Source: Paraglomus occultum
Taxonomy: Eukaryota > Glomeromycota > Glomeromycetes > Paraglomerales > Paraglomeraceae
Assembly: GCA_910592205.1 (NCBI GenBank)
Contig: CAJVPJ010000021.1
Location: forward strand, 1 to 64,000
Direction: 5' to 3'
DNA: 64,000 nt
The notes under the pieces: model-generated
What the model saw: the letters and a program-made list of their open reading frames with translations, nothing else
Told to the model about the DNA's origin: nothing
Databases searched by the model: none
Position numbers and translations under genes: made by a program
Shown: one piece after another, positions 8,727 through 52,390 of the stretch
Numbering within the stretch: position 1 is the stretch's first letter
Layout of the letters: each line of letters opens with the position of its first letter

Positions 8727-9423
8727 ATGTCGTTTAACGAGTTTTCGCTTCATGGGAATCCAGAGATTTATCTAGACATAGATAACATAGTCTCTCAAGG
8801 ATATTCTGCAAATCTTCTTTCTTTGCCGATCAACGATAATAATGAGGCTCCGACTGAGTCGTTGCCAACAAATGCTACGTTGGAGTATTGTCAGGATATA
8901 TCTACGTTCGTTGTGAAATGTAATGGTGAAGAACTTGTCTCATTTCTAATTGAGAAAGAAGCGATGGGCAGCAATGCATACATGCGCTTTAGAGGGGAAT
9001 TTGTGAGAGCTCTAAAACAGAAGGGAAACGATTTGTATAAAGATATGAAAGAAGTATCTAAATTAACAAGTATAGCTTGGAACAGTGCTGATGACCGTAT
9101 TAAAGACAAATTCAGACGCAACAGCAGAAAGAGAAAAGTACAATCAATAAAGACGAACACATCTCAGAGTTTTACTTGCCCCGACTGTGGAACTTCCCAT
9201 GAAATCCCTAGCCAACCCGTCAAACTTATATACGCTGAGACGACTACAACCACACAGAGTATTAAGTGTTCCAATCTTAAATGTCAAAGAAAACACAAAC
9301 TAGTTGCGACTTACAAAGGTATGTGTTGTTCTCAATGCCCGTAATTTATTTACAACAGCATTCTGATATAATATTTCTCCACCCTGTAAAGTTTTCTCGA
9401 AGAAGGGGATCGGCATGTGTTAG
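8727..9423 (+). CDS. MATA_HMG-type HMG-box protein with C-terminal zinc-ribbon-like cysteines, copy 1
   Basis: Probable DNA-binding protein. Exon 1 (8727-9318) and exon 2 (9392-9423) give about 207 residues. The splice at ACAAAG|GTATGT is inferred because copy 2 has the same donor and a similar acceptor. Residues about 83-135 form a divergent HMG box (AYMRFRGEFVRAL, MKEVSKLTSIAW, KDKF). A basic stretch NSRKRKV follows, a likely nuclear signal. Residues 151-187 hold C-x2-C (CPDC) and a second cysteine pair (CSNLKC). A conserved segment before the box, at about 63-77 (VVKCNGEELVSF), is shared with copies 2 and 3. Large families of such HMG proteins are known from arbuscular mycorrhizal fungi. 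Targets are unknown and the zinc ribbon is my reading. Confidence 0.75.
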
Positions 9424-12708: not shown

Positions 12709-13696
12709 ATGAACACAACTGATATTGGCCGTGATTTTAACGCGATGTCGGACGAATTCTTGTCTTTGGAAAATCGAGAGTCTGACCAAGTCCCAAATGG
12801 CATAGCCTCTGGATATCATCTTAATTATCTTTCTCTGCCGATCAATGATAACGAGGCCAATCGGTCCCGGTTGAATGCTATATTGCAAATCTTCAATCAG
12901 ATCACTCAGGCATATCTTCTTTCCTTGTCGAGCAACGCTAATCGGACCGAGTGGAACGCTTTATTGCAAAACTTGATCTCTCAGGCATATTCGTTGATCA
13001 ACGATAACGAAGACAATCGGGCCGAGTGGTACGCTCTATTGCAAGATTTGATTGACATAATCTCTCACGCATATTCGCTGATCAACGATAACGAGGCTAA
13101 TCGGACCGAGTCATTGCCACATGTTACGTTAGAGAACTGCCAAGATGTGTCTATGTACGTTGTGAAATATAATGGTGAAGAACTTGTCTCATTCCAAATT
13201 GAGAAAGAAACGAAGGGCGGCAATAGATACATGCGCTTTAGAAATACAGTTGTAAAAGCCCTAAAACTGAAGGGGCACGCATTTTCTAAGGATATGAAGG
13301 AAGTATCTACATTAACAAAAATAGCTTGGCACAGTGCTGATGACCGTATTAAAGACGAATTCGATCGCATAGGGAACAGTGCTGATGACCATAGTAAAGA
13401 CAAATTTAATCGCAAAAGGGGAAAAGTACGATCAAAAAAGAAAAACTCGTCTTTGAGATTTATTTGTTCCGTCTGTAAAATCTCCTTCCCTATCCAACAT
13501 GCCAAACGTATATATGCTGCGGATAAGGAGGCCACAACCAGGCGTGATATTACGTGCCCTAATTGCCAAAGGCTACACAAACTTCATACGACTTACAAAG
13601 GTATGTAATCAGTATTTGGTTTCAATAACTAACTAACATTTATTAATAACATTCTACAAATATTTTCTCTTCTCTTACTAAGTCGTCTCTGAATAA
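12709..13696 (+). CDS. MATA_HMG-type HMG-box protein with zinc ribbon and internal repeats, copy 2
   Basis: Paralogue of the gene at 8727. Exon 1 is 12709-13600; exon 2 is 13683-13696, joined at ACAAAG|GTATGT and TTACTAAG|TC with a clear branch-like CTAAC. The protein is about 302 residues. Residues about 40-135 hold two to three tandem repeats of a unit like SLINDNEANRTEW-ALLQ-LI. These are absent from copies 1 and 3 and lengthen the N-terminal part. The shared segment VVKYNGEELVSFQIEKE is followed by the HMG box (YMRFRNTVVKALKLKG, MKEVSTLTKIAW). Within and after the box a NSADDRxKDxF phrase is repeated. The end carries C-x2-C (CSVC) and C-x2-C (CPNC), a complete zinc-ribbon pattern. It probably binds DNA; the function is otherwise unknown. 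Confidence 0.75.
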
Positions 13697-14349: not shown

Positions 14350-14925
14350 ATGACTTCTCCCGACAAGCAGACGATGAACAATCCCGTCAGCTCAAGTCAA
14401 ATTAAAGAGCTGTTTGGCGGCTTTTCCGTCCCAAACCTTTATTTTCCAGACTCGTACGTTAGTCAACCTGAGCAACAAACAAGTTCAGATCCAAAAGCTG
14501 AACTTCGGCATGATTATAATTCGGGAACGACCACTCTGAACCTGGACGGTGAATACGTTACCTCGTTTCAATTGAATGAATTTAATACAAGTGGCAGCAG
14601 TAATGGATTTTTCTATATTAGATGTCTCATAAATGAGGCTCTAATACGAGACGGCAACGACCTCTACAAGGATCAGGCTCGGGTTTCCAGGATTGCCGGT
14701 GCAGCTTGGCATTCTACAACCGACGCTATCAGGCAAATGTTTAACGATTTTAACAGAAGTCTGGTATCGGCTTCAGGAATGGCAAGCCCACAACGCAATG
14801 TAACTTGCCCCCATTGTCATAACTGCTTTGTATTAGTTCAACCCGACCCGCCCAGGCCGAAGCGACGGAAGCAGCGACAGCAACGACGGCAAAGACGAAG
14901 ACCAGGGGGACAGGAACCTGAGTAA
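14350..14925 (+). CDS. divergent HMG-box protein with arginine-rich tail, copy 3
   Basis: Third member of the local family, apparently one exon of 191 residues. A segment like VVKYNGEELVSF is recognisable as LNLDGEYVTSFQLNEF. The HMG-like box at about 95-140 contains IRDGNDLYKDQARVSRIAG and AAWHS. After it comes one C-x2-C-x2-C cluster (CPHCHNC) and then a lysine/arginine-rich end (RPKRRKQRQQRRQRRR) in place of the second half of the zinc ribbon. That tail could bind nucleic acid or act as a nuclear signal. It is the most diverged copy. The ATG at 14350 is the first in frame. Confidence 0.65.
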   Translation: MTSPDKQTMNNPVSSSQIKELFGGFSVPNLYFPDSYVSQPEQQTSSDPKAELRHDYNSGTTTLNLDGEYVTSFQLNEFNTSGSSNGFFYIRCLINEALIRDGNDLYKDQARVSRIAGAAWHSTTDAIRQMFNDFNRSLVSASGMASPQRNVTCPHCHNCFVLVQPDPPRPKRRKQRQQRRQRRRPGGQEPE

Positions 14926-29228: not shown

Positions 29229-31562
29229 ATGACACCAGCAAAGACGCATTCCAGAACAATACCACCACAGGTACCTGTGGACAACGTCCCAAATCAAAAG
29301 CGTAAGTATGGCGGGAAGTGGGTGGGAATATCGAAGAGACCCGGCTGCAGATTCGCAGGCAACATGGAGAAAGCGACCCACATATTTATTCAGTATTTAT
29401 TTTTTTTTATCTGGTAGACGTGATAGGCGTATGTGCTATGAAAGCTAAAGCGACTTCAAAGCCTATGGAGAGCATACTAAATAGATTAGTTGCTTATAAT
29501 GAAATAGACGTTGTAACTTTCGATGAGGAAGTTATACTGACGAAAGGTATGGTCTCGCTCATTACAACAGTAATGCTTATAAGCGAAGAAATAACGCTGC
29601 TTGGAAGAACTTTATTTTGTGGTCTACCCTTTTTCTATTCCTGCTTCTTCTCACGCGCATACCCGACAAACAGATGTCCATTCATGGCCTCACTGTCACA
29701 CCTTGATATCTTTCTTCAGCACCGGCTTTCCGTTGGATAAGGCTGAATCATATGCAAGACTAAAGAAGCCCTTTTGTATCAATGATCTCACTATGCAGCG
29801 TCTACTCTGGGACCGAAGACTAGTGCTTGCACTTCTCGATGCAATAGGAGTCCCGACTCCCCCAAGAATAATAGTTAACAGGGATCGATGTAAAGTGGAT
29901 CCTAGTGTTATCGAGAAGATCAAAATAGCAACAGGTGTCGAAATTGATTTGGATAGCTTTTGTGAGATTGGGAACAATCATGTCGAGATTGTTGACGAAG
30001 ACACTGTAAGGATTGGGGGACAGATTTTGAAAAAGCCATTTGTCGAGAAGCCAGTCGATGCTGATGATCACAATGTGTACATATATTATTCAAAAGAGAT
30101 GGGAGGAGGTGGTAGAAGATTATTTAGAAAGGTAAGCTATCGGGTAAACATAGAGCGAATCGAACTACTTGTTTTACTTAAAGCATATGTAATTTGGACT
30201 TGGTTGTATAGAAAGGATGCGTGTACAAACTACCTGTTGCGTTCCACACACTTCTTTATTGAACCCACACCTTCTACTTATTAATACATATGCCAACTCT
30301 AATTTCAGGTAAACAACAAGTCGAGCGATTTTGATCAGACCCTGACCACTCCGCGTACATCCGGTTCATACATATACGAGGCATATCTTCCACCCGATAA
30401 TTCTTCGGATGTGAAAGTATACACCGTTGGCCCCGGATATGCTCATGCAGAAGCTCGCAAATCGCCTACTGTTGATGGGCGAGTAGACCGTTGTAAAGAT
30501 GGTAAAGAAGTCAGATATGTCACACAATTGACAGAAGAGGAGAAAGAAATTTCTGGAAGGATTGTTAAAATCTTTGCACAATGGATTTGTGGATTTGACT
30601 TGTTGAGAGTAAAAGAGAAAAGTTATGTCATTGATGTAAATGGATGGTCCTTTGTCAAAGGATCTGAAAATTATTATGAAGACTGTGCTAGGTTGATACG
30701 AAATTTGGTTTTGGAAAGAGGTATGAAGGACGAACTGCAAAACTGTAACGATAAATGTACCGCCGATGCAGCAGACGAGGCTGACGCCTTAACCAAAAAC
30801 GATACTGTCGAGGACTCGGATACACTGATCGAACAAGACACGTCATTAGCTGAACGTTCCAACTTGTCATATGCTTTTGTTCTTTCGCCTATTTCAAATT
30901 TTATCCATATCATCACTACCAATGGGGTTTCTTCCCTTCTTCTCCAAGCGAAGCAATCTTTGTCTACTGTGTTGAACTTTACAATTGAAGCCGTAAAACG
31001 ACGATATGACTATGTCATAAAAGTGATCCAACTCGATGCGTTTATTTCGAAATGGGCGACTACTGTTGATTCAGCGGCTACGCAGAACGATGAAACAACA
31101 GAGGTTATGCCGTTTGAAAATTCTGTTAATCATGATGAACGTGAAAGTTTTGCCAGCCATAAAGTGGAGAATGTTGAGTCGGTTGAAAATGCCGAGATGA
31201 ATGTGCATACACGAACATCTAGCTGCTGGGATGAGTGTTTTGAGATTGCGTTCAAGCGGGACCAGAATGACGCGTCATGGGAAGAGGAAGACGAAGGATC
31301 ACATGGACAAGAAAGCATTGCTGATAATAGTGACGATGATGATAGAAGCGTTGATAGCAGGGATAGTGCGGACCATGATGTTAGTAGAGCAGATGACATA
31401 ACTGGTAGTTCAAATGATGAATACTGCGAACATTCTCGGTTTGAAATGTATGAATCGCAAATTTCAGAGATATCACATCAAAAGTCCCCTCACATCACTT
31501 ACTCGGACCATGACTATCAACATTATGACAATTGTCCAATAATCAACAAGTCATGGGGATAG
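29229..31562 (+). CDS. VIP1: VIP1/PPIP5K inositol pyrophosphate kinase lacking the phosphatase domain
   Basis: Kinase that adds a pyrophosphate at the 1-position of InsP6/5-InsP7. Four exons in phase (29229-29301, 29418-29546, 29674-30131, 30309-31562) give 637 residues. The N-terminal module has VIGVCAMKAKATSKPM. The ATP-grasp kinase follows: STGFPLDKAESYARLKKPF, CINDLTMQRLLWDRR, KKPFVEKPVDADDHNVYIYY, GRRLFRK, VKVYTVGPGYAHAEARKSP, ICGFDLLRVKEKSYVIDVNG, then SFVKGSENYYEDCARLI. All the nucleotide, inositol and metal positions I know are kept. Canonical proteins then have a histidine-acid-phosphatase domain (RHGDRTP). Here the frame goes on, after residue about 365, into an acidic segment, a hydrophobic stretch at about 405-450 and a strongly acidic Asp/Ser tail, then stops. 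No phosphatase motif is seen there or in the next 2 kb. Confidence 0.9.
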
Positions 31563-33842: not shown

Positions 33843-35468
33843 ATGCCCGCTAACCTTAGTATAAAAGCGCTTCCTTTGGAGATTGTCAATTCAAAGCAAA
33901 TTCTATCTCCATCGGCGCTACTACCTTCCGCTCACTTATTCATGTTAAAAGTAACAACCTTGGTATCTCCACCTATAAGCAAATTGTACAAGATAACCGT
34001 AGAACAGTCCAACCATCTCATGCAAAAATCGATACTTTTCCATGATTTGGCCACACAATACGCTAGCGTTGCATCACAGTCAGTTGCTACTGGCGAGCTT
34101 TCGGCTGAAGAAGAGCGGCAACTCGTAGAGGAGGCTCAAGGTCTACCCATGATTTACGTAGAAGCACCGGTTGAACGCGTTGAGATAATCGATGCATTGT
34201 TAGACTGGCTTTTCTCGTCTTGCGATGCTGACGATATCAATGAAACGCTGTCTTCGTCGCTGGCGTCGAAGATTCAATCTACCCACGATTTCTTCTCGTT
34301 GATCAACTTTGCTACTCTCTTGAACTTGTTCGAGCCTTATTGTAGCGCAGTCGATGAAATACTGGTTTATTATTACTTTGGCCTATCTACCGAGGACAGA
34401 AGAAATACGATTCTGGCTCATGATCAATTTATTGAAGGACTTCTCCCCGGTAGATTTGCGAGGAGGTTGGTCGAGGTGGTGGCAGAGGATGAAGCAATAG
34501 AAATTATCAAAGCGTTCTTTAGAGCAACATGCATCTATCGTGACGATCAAGAGGGGTACTTTGACGCATATGTATGTGATGAAGAGATGACGTTTGTTAG
34601 CGAGTCTGGTTTCGACTTGAAAAACTTTCCCAACGCACCCGTGTCTACTCACCAAGACCTTGTGAAAAAATCTATTGGCCGCGAAAGTGTTCCTAATACT
34701 CCATTCTCTCCATTTGATTATGCCGAGCCACCAACACCGTTGGGATCGGCGTATATGTGTATACCACCGGGGACTCCTGCAACCCCATCATCCCAGCGTA
34801 TACGACCGAGGTCTATGACAGTTGGAGCAGCTACACCGAGGAGCCCCATGTTGCAGCATGTTCCTCCTAATACTCCGGCCACACCATTCTCGCTTTTGAC
34901 CCCAACACCGACTAAAGGAGGTTTTGAAACTAACTCCTCGAAAGTTCCACCGAATACGCCTGCTTCTCCATCATTTAGTCAATCTGTTGGAAACCCGACA
35001 AGCCGGTCTTTTGATAACGTTTCCAGTGTGCCACCAAACATACTAAACGTACTTGAATCGGCTGGCTTATATGATAATCTATCTAATAATGTCTTGAAGA
35101 CTTCCACGATGTGTCCAAATATCGTCGAGCATAGTGTCAAAGACAATAATGACGAAAACGATAACATTAACCATAACCATAACAATAACAATAACAATAC
35201 CTACAACTACAATAATTCCTCACCTAGTATTTGTAATAATCTCCTATCACCGTCTTCACCTTATCTTCCTAGTGCACCACCAAATTCTCCCGCATCTCCT
35301 TCAAAATCGCGAACAGTGTCTGAAAATGACCAATTAAGTGTTCCGTCTATTCCTTTAAATAATTCTACTACTGGTATAGTGCAAGGAATGGACGGTAGCA
35401 ATTCGTCCATTCGTCGCAGGATATTTGAATATGCACTGAGCAAAATGGGAACTCGTCGCTTCTTGTAA
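33843..35468 (+). CDS. unknown protein with helical N-terminal domain and S/T-P repeat region
   Basis: Single exon, 541 residues, from an ATG. I do not recognise the protein. Residues about 1-265 look folded and helical; the part around 110-190 (VERVEIIDALLDWLF, then HDFFSLINFATLLNLF) faintly recalls a BTB/POZ or Skp1-like fold, at low confidence. From about 280 the sequence is low-complexity. It has at least six variants of a repeat like VPPNTPATP-S (VPNTPFSP, IPPGTPATP, VPPNTPATP, VPPNTPASP, APPNSPASP), all with S/T-P sites suited to proline-directed kinases. An asparagine-rich run (about 434-457) follows. The end is basic (SSIRRRIFEYALSKMGTRRF). Confidence 0.7.
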   Translation: MPANLSIKALPLEIVNSKQILSPSALLPSAHLFMLKVTTLVSPPISKLYKITVEQSNHLMQKSILFHDLATQYASVASQSVATGELSAEEERQLVEEAQGLPMIYVEAPVERVEIIDALLDWLFSSCDADDINETLSSSLASKIQSTHDFFSLINFATLLNLFEPYCSAVDEILVYYYFGLSTEDRRNTILAHDQFIEGLLPGRFARRLVEVVAEDEAIEIIKAFFRATCIYRDDQEGYFDAYVCDEEMTFVSESGFDLKNFPNAPVSTHQDLVKKSIGRESVPNTPFSPFDYAEPPTPLGSAYMCIPPGTPATPSSQRIRPRSMTVGAATPRSPMLQHVPPNTPATPFSLLTPTPTKGGFETNSSKVPPNTPASPSFSQSVGNPTSRSFDNVSSVPPNILNVLESAGLYDNLSNNVLKTSTMCPNIVEHSVKDNNDENDNINHNHNNNNNNTYNYNNSSPSICNNLLSPSSPYLPSAPPNSPASPSKSRTVSENDQLSVPSIPLNNSTTGIVQGMDGSNSSIRRRIFEYALSKMGTRRFL

Positions 35469-36142
35469 TATAGTATGTTAAGATAGGTGATAAGTTTTTT
35501 AATAGACATCCAATGTCTCTTCTTAAAATCTGCTGATAGATTGTATAGAGCTACCTATTAATAAAGTAATCTTCTGTTTGATAACATGGAATAAGCGGAA
35601 TTCTTACCACCATTGACATCATCTATGGATAGGGATAGGATATTACATATGCCAGAGTATAAAAGGCTGATTTAGCAGCAAATTTATCATATTTGGACTT
35701 ACGGACTACCCAATAGGACTTGTCCCAATATAAAGATTAACTGTAGCAATCGATCATGAAAGGGTATTTTTTGCACGTCTCCAAGTTTCTCCCAGAGTTG
35801 GTTATTTTTGGACTAAGTACGACTGAAGAGCTAACATATTTATTCATCTTCACTAGTAATGACAGCCTACACGACTGCCATATTATCAATGAATGTCATA
35901 CGCAATTGAATCTGATCATCGTTAGACAATAAGTTCTTATTTGAACAGAAATATCGTCTTCAGTATATCCGAATGGATTTCATTGTCCCTTAGTAAGTAA
36001 GCTCTTGCTCACAGCTGTCGATACATTCTTCCTCTCTTAATAATAAATCGGGACATTCAATGGCGCCTTTACTCTGTGTAGTAGTAGCGTTCTTTATTAT
36101 CGGTACGTATGTTGGACTGACGTTAAAGGCGTTTATGTTGCT
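35469..36142. other. spacer between convergent genes
   Basis: Lies between the 3' ends of the S/T-P repeat gene (+) and the EAF3-GATA gene (-). No gene seen; presumably holds both polyadenylation regions. Confidence 0.45.
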
Positions 36143-38616
36143 TTACTTGCTCGATCCAGTTTTTATATGTGTCCATAAATGTTGTGGTCGATGTGATTTA
36201 TATTTAGCATAATACAATCCACATGCTTGTTACAATGAAAGACAAAAATTAGCATCTTTTTATAACATATCATCTTACACAAGGCATATGCAATTTCTTA
36301 CCATTACAAAGTTTCTGCTCTGGTGTTTCCCCTGCTCTCCATCCAGGAGTATCACTCGTACCACAGTTATAACATGAAAGACCAGCTGCATTATTTAGAG
36401 ATATAATCAGTATTATTAATGATGGTTCAATGACAATATTAACGAGTCATTTACCTGGATTATTGCCCCATCCACTTGTCTTCTTTTCGTGAGATTTCTT
36501 TGATTTAGGGTAGGGTACTACGCTGGTTGGCTCATATTCATTAAGAAAATATTGTGCCTCATTCTTCTCTAGAAATCTGCATGCATATATCAGACAGAAA
36601 TCCGTTAGAGCATAATATCAAAGCTATTTCTTACAATACGATAAGCACTAATTTCAATACATCGCTCCTCGAATCCGGGCTTCCCAATAAACCAGAACAG
36701 TGACCATCGAAAGGAAATTAGTTATCCTTATCAAAATTATATCACGCTTCTTTTCACCATGCCTAATGCTTACCTTAAAAAATTCACCAGATGTTCAACC
36801 AGAGAAACAGCAGTAGCCTCATCAATATTAGTATGGGCAAGCAGCTGAGGAAGCTCGACTATAAATAAATAACCGGACAATCAGCTTTCTTAAAGCGGAA
36901 CGATTTCACCATCCGCATACAAACCGTCTTACCAAATAATCTTAACAGATGTTCTGCACCATATATTTCAGAGTAAGTCTTATCTTCATATTTTGTCTTC
37001 ATATCAGAGAGTTGTTGTCTCTCAGATGCATAAAGAAGCATGGTAGAAAGGACCTTTTCGAAATATACTTTTATACCGTTTGCTACCTCGGAGTGAATAT
37101 CAGATCTAAACAGTGGCGAAAACGTTGTGTGTTTTTTTTTCGAATGTGTAAATGTTATGTCGAGAAAAGTCGATGCGCGCATAGAAACTTACCTTTCACC
37201 CTTGGCTATTGCGGCTTTTGACTTCTCATCGACATATTGATTCAAAATCTCAATTACCGTAGGCCGACGGGGCAATGGAACAAGCTATAATATCGGTATA
37301 TGTTTATAATCAAAGTCAATACTAGTCAATGTGGACAAAGTACATCATTACAGCCAACGAAAACAAGCCACGCAGTCTCTCCACACAAACACACTCGTCA
37401 CCAACCTCTCCACGTAGTATAATATGTTCCCAATCGTCAATCAGTTTAGCCTTGAGCGCCTCGGGAATAGATACTTGTAACTCTGGTCGGTTCAAAAACT
37501 CGGCTTCCTAAAACCAATCGGATCTCACGGTTAGGAACTGTCATCACTCCGCATCTCATGTAACCTACTAACGCCCTCGACACCCTTACCAGTTCTCTCT
37601 CTTCTGGCGTAAGATCGGTTCTTTTGTAATATACGCCCGTGGAATCTTTTTTTCCTTTGCTATCTTTAGCCATCGCATTATTCTCCTTGAATTCACCAAG
37701 ATCATCCGGATCTTTCATCGTAACGTCGCCATCATTATCACTATGAATGTTTTTCTTTTCGAGTTTTGTTCTTTTAGTCTTTCTTTTTGTTTCTGATACT
37801 GTTGTGTCAGCAGATCTCTTTTGAGTGATTCTCTTTTGTAACACCTTGACCTCTTCCACCGCCTTGTCATCTAATTAAGTATGTAAAGTCAAGAGTGATT
37901 ATTAATAAATTGACATCAAACAGACTGTTAGCACGTTATGGCGCATTTTACCTTACGAGATACCTTACCGCTTGTCTTATCAGTGCCTTTCTCGGATGGT
38001 TTTGAAGATGACTTTTTTTTGCCAACCATGCCAGCATTACCACCCGAAGGAGTATAAACTTTTTTTAATTGTCGTTGTCTTTCAAGATTTGCCTCGTTCC
38101 ATTTAACAACCCTTGTCTCTGGTACCCATTCGTCCCACCTAAAAGGCGCAGGATCGACGAATGAGTAGTTAGTATCGACGAATGAGCAGTTAGTCTCGAC
38201 AGAAAAACGCGTGAAACAAAGAAACTAGCATAAAAAGCAAAAAACATACGTGCTCTTCCAGCCTTTGTAGTGTATGTAATAATGAGGTCCATTCTCGTCG
38301 TCGGGAGAATCTCTCCCAACCCAATATTCTGCTTTCAACACCTGGAAAGACGCGTTAATTGGTGGAATGGAATGTAGAAAATAGAGTGCATTTGTTAGAT
38401 ATATATCTTCTTAAATACTCGCACTATGGCCACATTTGTGATCACACGTCAAATTTTTTCACCCTAAAAACATGCACCGTCCCACGAAAAAGGATTTCTC
38501 AGAACGTCAATATTACGTACTTTAGCTTCATATAGTAGTGGTCCGTGAAAGCAAAGCACTTGCTCATTATCAGCGAATGTTAGTTTGCCTCCAGCGGAAT
38601 CGGGTGCAGCAGACAT
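36143..38616 (-). CDS. EAF3: Eaf3/MRG15-like chromatin protein with C-terminal GATA zinc finger
   Basis: Chromodomain-MRG protein of the NuA4 acetyltransferase and Rpd3S deacetylase complexes, which reads H3K36 methylation. Eleven exons join in phase (38616-38521, 38341-38250, 38138-37969, 37870-37590, 37507-37406, 37284-37193, 37105-36933, 36858-36774, 36576-36455, 36385-36302, 36225-36143), giving 459 residues. The chromodomain at about 10-80 has VLCFHGPLLYEAK, YYIHYKGWKSTWDEWVPETR. A basic linker follows, then the MRG domain (RPELQVSIPEALKAKLIDDW, LPRRPTVIEILNQY, GAEHLLRLFVELPQLL, VNFLRFLEKNEAQYF). The usual protein would end soon after. Here two more exons add a GATA finger, C-x2-C-x18-C-x2-C, with CYNCGTSDTPGWRAGE and LCNACGLYYAKYKSHRP. 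If the intron at 36454-36386 were retained, the protein would stop after NNPGK, without the finger. Confidence 0.9.
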
Positions 38617-51699: not shown

Positions 51700-52390
51700 T
51701 ATTATTATAACTGAAGTTCGAGAACAACATGAATACATGATATGATATGGAATAAGAATGATATAATTACAAAATACTCATACTCATAATAATAATAATA
51801 ACAACAATTATGAGTTATAACTATATTAATATCAAATATGTGTATCCCGGTTTTTCCTCTAATGTTGATCGCAGCCCAAACGTGAGCTTTAAATGAATGC
51901 TTAACCATAGGCTGAACTGGTTTTTTTCCGCGTGACCATGTATGGATCGTAGTCTCATAGAAAAAACTACTTTGTTCCAATTGTAATGCAAATAATTACG
52001 TGCCCAAGTTAAGCGATTAACATTCGCTTGCTGGGTTAAAACGGGCACTCTTCGCGGAAGAACTGAAGTATAACCAAGTGTATTAAGGTTACGGCGAAAA
52101 GTGCGTTCACTGACAACTAACTCTGAGTGTTTTGTTTCCAGCATAGTCTTCAATTCCTTAGATGTCGTGAAATGGTTATGTTTAATGATCATTCCAATCT
52201 GGCGACGTTGTTTAGGAGATAATTTTTGTGGGCGACCAGTTCGATAAATGGTCGGAATTTTGCCATTTTTCCGAAGAAAATGGACATAACGTTCACAGGA
52301 ACGCAAGGGAATTTTCGAAAATTTTTTTGCATTACGGATGTTTTGCTTCCAAACAAGTTTACGGTTTGTTTTAATAGGTGTAGGCGTCAT
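51700..52390 (-). mobile_element. Tc1/mariner transposase, frameshifted
   Basis: From an ATG at 52390 the minus strand encodes the paired DNA-binding region (SCERYVHFLRKNGKI, YRTGRPQKLSPKQRRQ) and the start of the catalytic domain (NWNKVVFS). At a run of T near 51968 the frame shifts. The other frame continues FYETTIHTWSRGKKPVQP and HVWAAINIRGKTGIHIF to about 51830. The first catalytic aspartate (SDE in active enzymes) reads Y-E here. The rest of the domain is missing, so the copy is dead. Confidence 0.8.

Follow-up and report, generated by a model that had tools for sequence, protein, structure and literature searches.

We identified, in the 64-kb stretch of Paraglomus occultum DNA analyzed here (the window), a gene whose product joins an Eaf3/MRG15-family protein to a C-terminal GATA zinc finger. 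At the level of sequence, the two parts are fused in one reading frame, the fusion is conserved in nine genera, the proteins that carry it fall into a single clade, the finger is akin to that of BRD7/9-type bromodomain proteins, and the gene has a finger intron in common with a BRD7/9-type gene of its own genome. We consider it rather likely that the protein is an Eaf3/MRG15-family subunit with a BRD7/9-derived finger that was gained in an ancestor of Glomeromycota and that adds a direct contact with nucleosomal or linker DNA. Eaf3/MRG15 is a core conserved reader common to two opposing machines, the Rpd3S deacetylase and the NuA4 acetylase, and Glomeromycota are mostly obligately plant symbiotic and hard to transform. 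A finger kept on Eaf3 throughout this group would alter how chromatin machines locate their sites, and such a change would define the lineage.

Gene model and domains of the MRG-GATA protein

The MRG-GATA (Eaf3-like) gene extends over 36143..38616 on the minus strand and consists of 11 coding exons that join in one frame to encode 459 amino acids (aa). All 10 introns are of the GT-AG type, and the stop codon lies at 36145-36143. The features to which we refer below are as follows:

38521..38616, minus strand: exon 1; start codon at 38616-38614, first part of the chromodomain
38250..38341, minus strand: exon 2; chromodomain
37969..38138, minus strand: exon 3; end of the chromodomain and linker
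37590..37870, minus strand: exon 4; charged linker
37406..37507, minus strand: exon 5; MRG domain
37193..37284, minus strand: exon 6; MRG domain
36933..37105, minus strand: exon 7; MRG domain
36774..36858, minus strand: exon 8; MRG domain, ending in ...NFL plus two bases
36577..36773, minus strand: intron 8; 197 nt, phase 2, immediate stop after ...FLR if retained
36455..36576, minus strand: exon 9; last part of the MRG domain, linker leading to the finger
36386..36454, minus strand: intron 9; 69 nt, phase 1, stop after ...NNPGK if retained
36302..36385, minus strand: exon 10; first part of the GATA finger (CYNC...LCN), both flanking introns in phase 1
36226..36301, minus strand: intron 10; 76 nt, phase 1 (LCN|A), matched in place and phase by an intron of the BRD7/9-type gene on contig C1357
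36143..36225, minus strand: exon 11; ACGLYYAKYKSHRPQHLW..., tail and stop codon
36093..36098, minus strand: AATAAA, 45 nt 3' of the stop codon

The predicted protein contains an MSL3_chromo-like domain at residues 14 to 88 (Pfam PF22732; 66.4 bits, cut-off 28), a complete MRG domain at residues 212 to 379 (PF05712; 178.7 bits, profile positions 8 to 189 of 190), and a GATA finger at residues 409 to 443 (PF00320; 47.1 bits, E value 1.8e-12, cut-off 26.8). The finger has the form C-x2-C-x18-C-x2-C; it is split by intron 10 and restored exactly on splicing (LCN|ACGLYY). Moreover, P0001, a separately made model from Paraglomus brasilianum (Paraglomerales, Glomeromycota), matches the protein with 94% identity at 100% coverage and agrees with our model through both finger junctions. 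The initial annotation had described an 11-exon, continuous-phase reading from an MRG protein into a GATA finger of this form, and the joined frame, the introns, the Pfam matches, and the P. brasilianum orthologue bear it out.

That the reading reflects an assembly join or two neighboring genes is exceedingly improbable. We found nothing that favors such an artefact; no more than a 69-nt intron precedes the finger exon and parts its frame from that of exon 9, no ATG occurs upstream of the finger within the stop-to-stop frame of the finger exon, and independent relatives (P. brasilianum and species of eight other genera) have the finger joined to the MRG domain, which refutes it. The AATAAA at 36098 is the first AATAAA or ATTAAA downstream of exon 4 on the same strand, and neither hexamer was found in introns 8 to 10 on that strand. 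Thus, with no ATG upstream, the finger lacks a separate start, and with the AATAAA 45 nt beyond its stop codon, it precedes the first likely 3' end of the gene.

Apart from the finger and the linker that leads to it, which are additions of the P. occultum protein, its chromodomain and MRG domain are those of the Eaf3/MRG15 (MORF4L1) family. The closest PDB entries by sequence, with P0001 as the query, were Schizosaccharomyces pombe Eaf3 (8i02), human MORF4L1 (8bpa), and yeast EAF3 (7yi0). The stretches HGPLLYEAK and HYKGWK..WDEW could be aligned with both S. pombe Eaf3 and human MORF4L1, and they may contain the methyl-lysine aromatic cage. An AlphaFold model of P0001 (38-row alignment) was confident for the chromodomain and the MRG domain, of low confidence for the linkers, and moderately confident for the finger (10-residue means of 68 to 80 over residues 401 to 440); because of this moderate confidence and an overall pTM of 0.53, we draw no inference on contacts between the finger and the MRG domain. 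In Foldseek, the best matches of the P0001 model were Eaf3 in Rpd3S-nucleosome structures and MRG15, with TM-scores by target length of 0.81 to 0.91 against MRG15/Eaf3 MRG-domain crystal chains (e.g., 7s4a, 6ine, 2f5j, and 8i3f).

The fusion across Glomeromycota

We searched for homologues with the whole protein, and the matches listed are the best 120 of 1761 (8000 candidates scored). PF00320 was present in 13 of these 120, and all 13 come from Glomeromycota, where the carriers represent nine genera: Paraglomus, Diversispora, Acaulospora, Rhizophagus (four proteins), Funneliformis, Cetraspora, Entrophospora, Geosiphon (two proteins), and Ambispora. None of the 97 listed homologues not named as Glomeromycota (best 120 of 1761) had a PF00320 match; these include Mortierella, Mucor, Bifiguratus, Jimgerdemannia, Calcarisporiella, and chytrids. 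Since a whole-protein search favors finger-bearing proteins, a close relative of the fusion elsewhere should rank high, while MRG-GATA fusions with a different finger could be missed at this depth of search. The initial annotation had raised the question of whether the joined form is conserved, and among the matches listed, it is, in all nine genera. It had also stated that it knew of no described MRG-GATA fusion; we found none in the titles and abstract openings of the open-access papers listed. The domain combination itself is visible in database entries through precomputed Pfam matches.

An MRG tree with the finger cut off was built from 16 glomeromycotan rows (15 of the 23 listed and the P. 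occultum protein), 25 of the 97 others, and a paralogue. The 16 glomeromycotan Eaf3 rows formed a single clade (98/93) whose internal branches follow genus and order. This one clade, obtained without the finger, points to a single origin of the MRG-GATA fusion. Mean pairwise identity over the nine genera was 0.76 for the finger, 0.75 for the chromodomain, 0.53 for the MRG domain, 0.33 for the pre-finger linker, and 0.24 for the long linker. Identity close to that of the chromodomain, with far lower values in the linkers, suggests that the finger is under strong constraint. Entrophospora is the exception, with a finger that is changed at W-R, CNAC, and CGL and is still above the Pfam cut-off (28.8 bits). 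In Entrophospora sp. SA101 (P0014 and P0021), the MRG-linked finger has drifted to W-H, CSIC, and CALYY at positions otherwise kept, a drift that serves as a natural test for whether finger loss can occur.

The P. occultum genome contains two further MRG loci. One of them is an unfused paralogue:

G000:C7, 86030-89230: L010, unfused Eaf3 paralogue; 300 aa, complete, with chromodomain and MRG domain and without a finger

Three MRG exons of L010 match those of the fused gene in length and phase (92, 173, and 85 nt). Its branch is long in the finger-free tree (1.09). In topology tests, a placement of L010 with all glomeromycotan MRG rows was not rejected (p-AU 0.33), and a placement solely with the MRG-GATA pair of Paraglomus was rejected (p-AU 0.007). 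The other locus, L011, is more divergent, and genome searches that scored the best candidates gave no GATA match on its contig. As L010 is complete without a finger, fused and unfused Eaf3 coexist in the same genome.

Intron retention and public gene models

The fusion is partly hidden in public gene models, since 10 of the 23 glomeromycotan entries among the matches listed have no intact finger. Five of these (P0015, P0016, P0018, P0019, and P0020) end in ...DFLK at the place of intron 8; P0010 continues as ...REGNLDYVPIF and ends just beyond the place of intron 9; P0012, labeled as partial, terminates just ahead of the finger; in P0011 and P0013, read by eye, the first exon of the finger appears to be present in a different frame; and half of the finger is present in P0021. 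The models that end in FLK match retention of intron 8, whose phase-2 GTAA donor reads G-TAA. The Rhizophagus irregularis models P0004 and P0007 differ in the pre-finger linker.

These endings could be taken to mean that fusion is confined to a minor or regulated isoform and that most of the protein stops before the finger through intron retention, and retention of intron 8 or 9 does give a stop within a few codons. However, an immediate stop is expected for any phase-2 intron that begins with GTAA, the form ending in FLK is missing the last part of the MRG domain, the model P0004 from the same species (16 member sequences) has the finger, and the finger matches the chromodomain in its degree of conservation. 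We therefore regard a predominantly finger-free protein as improbable, and the differences among public models are no proof of regulated splicing. The initial annotation had also proposed that splicing of intron 9 could switch the finger on or off. Retention would indeed give 406 aa ending in NNPGK, but the switch finds no specific support: an in-frame stop follows retention of 9 of the 10 introns, so the intron 9 stop is a generic property, and we rejected a special regulatory meaning for it.

Kinship of the finger with BRD7/9-type proteins

A search with the finger region gave eight matches, six MRG-GATA proteins and two Basidiobolus bromodomain-DUF3512-GATA proteins (82% finger identity). 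The reverse search from Basidiobolus gave 17 matches, which included the two Basidiobolus proteins, two MRG-GATA proteins, and bromodomain-GATA proteins of Ambispora, Geosiphon, Cetraspora, Acaulospora, Rhizophagus, and Diversispora (79 to 84%). Further matches were the bromodomain-GATA protein P0134 (60%), a Tudor-GATA protein (62%), and five GATA-factor-like proteins, partly of Tilletia (52 to 56%). Searches of the P. occultum genome itself (32.3 Mb in 1408 contigs) scored only the best candidates, so that more fingers may exist; the best other finger by identity was the C terminus of a BRD7/9-type gene (79% and 75% over two exon pieces), and the next best reached 60%. By E value, the one-exon finger C302:5213-5341 (51%) ranked just above each single exon piece of this gene:

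G000:C1357, 6200-8590: L024, BRD7/9-type bromodomain gene with the sister GATA finger at its C terminus; LCN|A phase-1 intron

A second DUF3512 (BRD7/9-type) match in the genome lies at G000:C281:5965-6069.

The two P. occultum genes have the same two intron phases. In each, one phase-1 intron lies shortly ahead of the finger, at a distance from the first cysteine of four residues in the MRG gene and three in the BRD gene, and another phase-1 intron lies at LCN|A, where the place is the same as well. Intron positions were compared within the P. occultum genome, for this pair and 11 other GATA fingers, and none of the 11 (printed sequence read by eye) had the LCN|A intron. In C195, C302a, and C215, the matched finger has no internal intron; in C302b, an intron directly follows the fourth cysteine; in both fingers of C656 and the first of C748, it follows CNACGL; the second C748 finger has a phase-1 intron inside the third cysteine codon, two codons upstream of the LCN|A place; in C66 and C240, the intron precedes LCNAC; and in C97, it lies past CNACGL at a place not fixed exactly.

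The BRD7/9-type (SMARCI) bromodomain-GATA proteins of Glomeromycota and Basidiobolus have a nearly identical finger subclass (TPGWRAGETP.QKLCNACGLYYAK...HRP..LW) on a different carrier, with a bromodomain and mostly with DUF3512. The signature TPGWR...LCNACGLY(Y/F)...RPxxLW is found in the P. occultum finger and in 9 of 10 BRD rows, P0134 reading CGLFW. In finger trees, which rest on 50 columns, MRG and BRD fingers were united with 97/90 (37 rows) and 70/31 (31 rows, after six partial or long rows were removed), and the MRG fingers formed one group with 88/82 and 54/76, respectively. A topology with the BRD fingers as a clade of their own was not rejected (p-AU 0.30).

Judged by its sequence, the finger is most closely related to the one at the end of BRD7/9-type bromodomain proteins. 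We infer that the finger represents the last two BRD7/9 exons copied onto EAF3; the direction from BRD7/9 to EAF3 is suggested by the occurrence of BRD-GATA proteins also outside Glomeromycota, which does not hold for MRG-GATA proteins among the matches listed. An origin from the canonical GATA factors of the genome was judged unlikely, since both sequence and intron position differ. In R. irregularis, RBRD7/9, which may be the same protein as P0127, is listed as an orthologue of the SWI/SNF subunit SMARCI in PMC9170682; GATA is absent from the main text of that paper.

DNA contact and its alternatives

The finger has the C4 zinc finger of PF00320 in common with canonical GATA factors (GATA-1/3 and AreA, and C195 and C302 of the same genome) and differs from them in its x18 loop, the glycine at position 17, the missing basic tail, and its carrier, a chromatin subunit. 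The numbering of Leu17 and Leu37, and the roles of these residues and of the basic tail, follow GATA-1/AreA structures and are assumed to apply here. Glycine occupies the Leu17 position in 21 of 22 MRG/BRD finger rows (aspartate in Entrophospora), and lysine replaces Leu37. In an alignment that included GATA-3, the finger lacked a basic tail, unlike C195 and C302a (KTDVIKKRNR and KRSVIKRRKR). The P. occultum finger retains N and A in CNAC, R after W, and L in CGL.

The initial annotation had suggested that the finger aims NuA4 or Rpd3S at WGATAR sites. A complete C-x2-C-x18-C-x2-C finger above the Pfam cut-off, with the retained residues just named, would be expected of such a sequence-specific binder. 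However, glycine in place of Leu17 and the missing basic tail weaken WGATAR targeting and leave DNA binding by the finger not assured; with lysine at Leu37 and membership in the BRD7/9-type subclass, the claim is not supported. A finger that addresses these complexes specifically to WGATAR sites is possible and is not our default reading; we hold it to be unlikely. The main rival to DNA anchoring is that the finger would be a protein-docking module for a partner common to the BRD7/9 remodeler and Eaf3 complexes and would not bind DNA. It would fit the presence of the same finger at the end of two kinds of chromatin protein and its departure from canonical GATA DNA-contact positions, and human GATAD1 is a separate protein found with MORF4L1 in the SIN3B-PHF12-MORF4L1 complex (PMC8143632). 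Against this, the partner is hypothetical, and the zinc site and helix core are as in DNA-binding fingers; we regard docking as a tentative reading, somewhat ahead of a WGATAR address. DNA anchoring with a weak or altered sequence preference would be the most likely role of the finger, and it is glycine at position 17, lysine at position 37, and the missing basic tail that make the preference appear weak or altered.

For DNA anchoring, we propose the following course of events. In the common ancestor of Glomeromycota, two terminal exons of a BRD7/9-type gene would have been duplicated onto EAF3, giving it a C-terminal finger. The chromodomain would read H3K36 methylation and the MRG domain would dock Rpd3S/NuA4-type partners, both as the yeast and human proteins do. 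Tethered C-terminal to the MRG domain by a flexible linker of ∼29 residues, the finger may then contact nucleosomal or linker DNA, probably with a weak or altered sequence preference, and such contact could strengthen or bias where the complex sits. Sin3 and EPL1 domains are present in the P. occultum genome; a search for the Set2 SRI domain gave no match in the genome and none in the controls either.

In yeast Rpd3S, as described in PMC10542350, the chromodomains hold H3K36-methylated nucleosomes and the MRG-PHD arms bind DNA linkers, so that a finger C-terminal to the MRG domain would sit where it could add a DNA contact. The yeast TINTIN module of NuA4, which contains Eaf3, binds nucleosomes weakly, and recruitment of NuA4 is thought to go through Tra1 and transcription factors (PMC9643008). 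GATAD1 provides a precedent in trans for a partnership of MRG and GATA-finger proteins; it is likened here by name, not by finger sequence, and unlike the fused P. occultum protein, it is a separate polypeptide in animals.

A bolder possibility, which we put forward with considerable doubt, is that a modified two-exon GATA finger was copied from the SWI/SNF subunit BRD7/9 onto Eaf3 in the ancestor of arbuscular mycorrhizal (AM) fungi and that the remodeler and the H3K36me-reading HDAC/HAT subunit, each bearing this DNA- or partner-reading finger ever since, are co-addressed to the same chromatin sites. If true, exon duplication would have rewired core chromatin machines throughout the lineage. 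Through the finger, a core gene-regulation machine of AM fungi may contact DNA or partners by a route that its relatives are not known to use, and one finger on two carriers is a concrete, testable handle on gene regulation in these fungi.

Neighboring features in the window

Besides the MRG-GATA gene, the 64-kb window contains several other open reading frames (ORFs):

8727-9344, plus strand: ORF with a borderline HMG-box match (25.2 bits, cut-off 25.4)
12709-13608, plus strand: ORF with a sub-threshold zinc-ribbon match
14350-14925, plus strand: ORF with no Pfam match
29601-31562, plus strand: ORFs, of which 30411-31562 has a RimK-like ATP-grasp match (24.6 bits)
33843-35468, plus strand: 541-aa ORF with PPNTPATP-type repeats and no Pfam match, convergent with the MRG-GATA gene
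51821-52390, minus strand: ORF

The first three ORFs are similar and adjoin one another, and we take them to resemble the expanded MATA-HMG genes of AM fungi. The ORFs at 29601-31562 presumably resemble a VIP1/PPIP5K-type inositol pyrophosphate kinase. By eye, the minus-strand ORF at 51821-52390 resembles a Tc1/mariner-type transposase.
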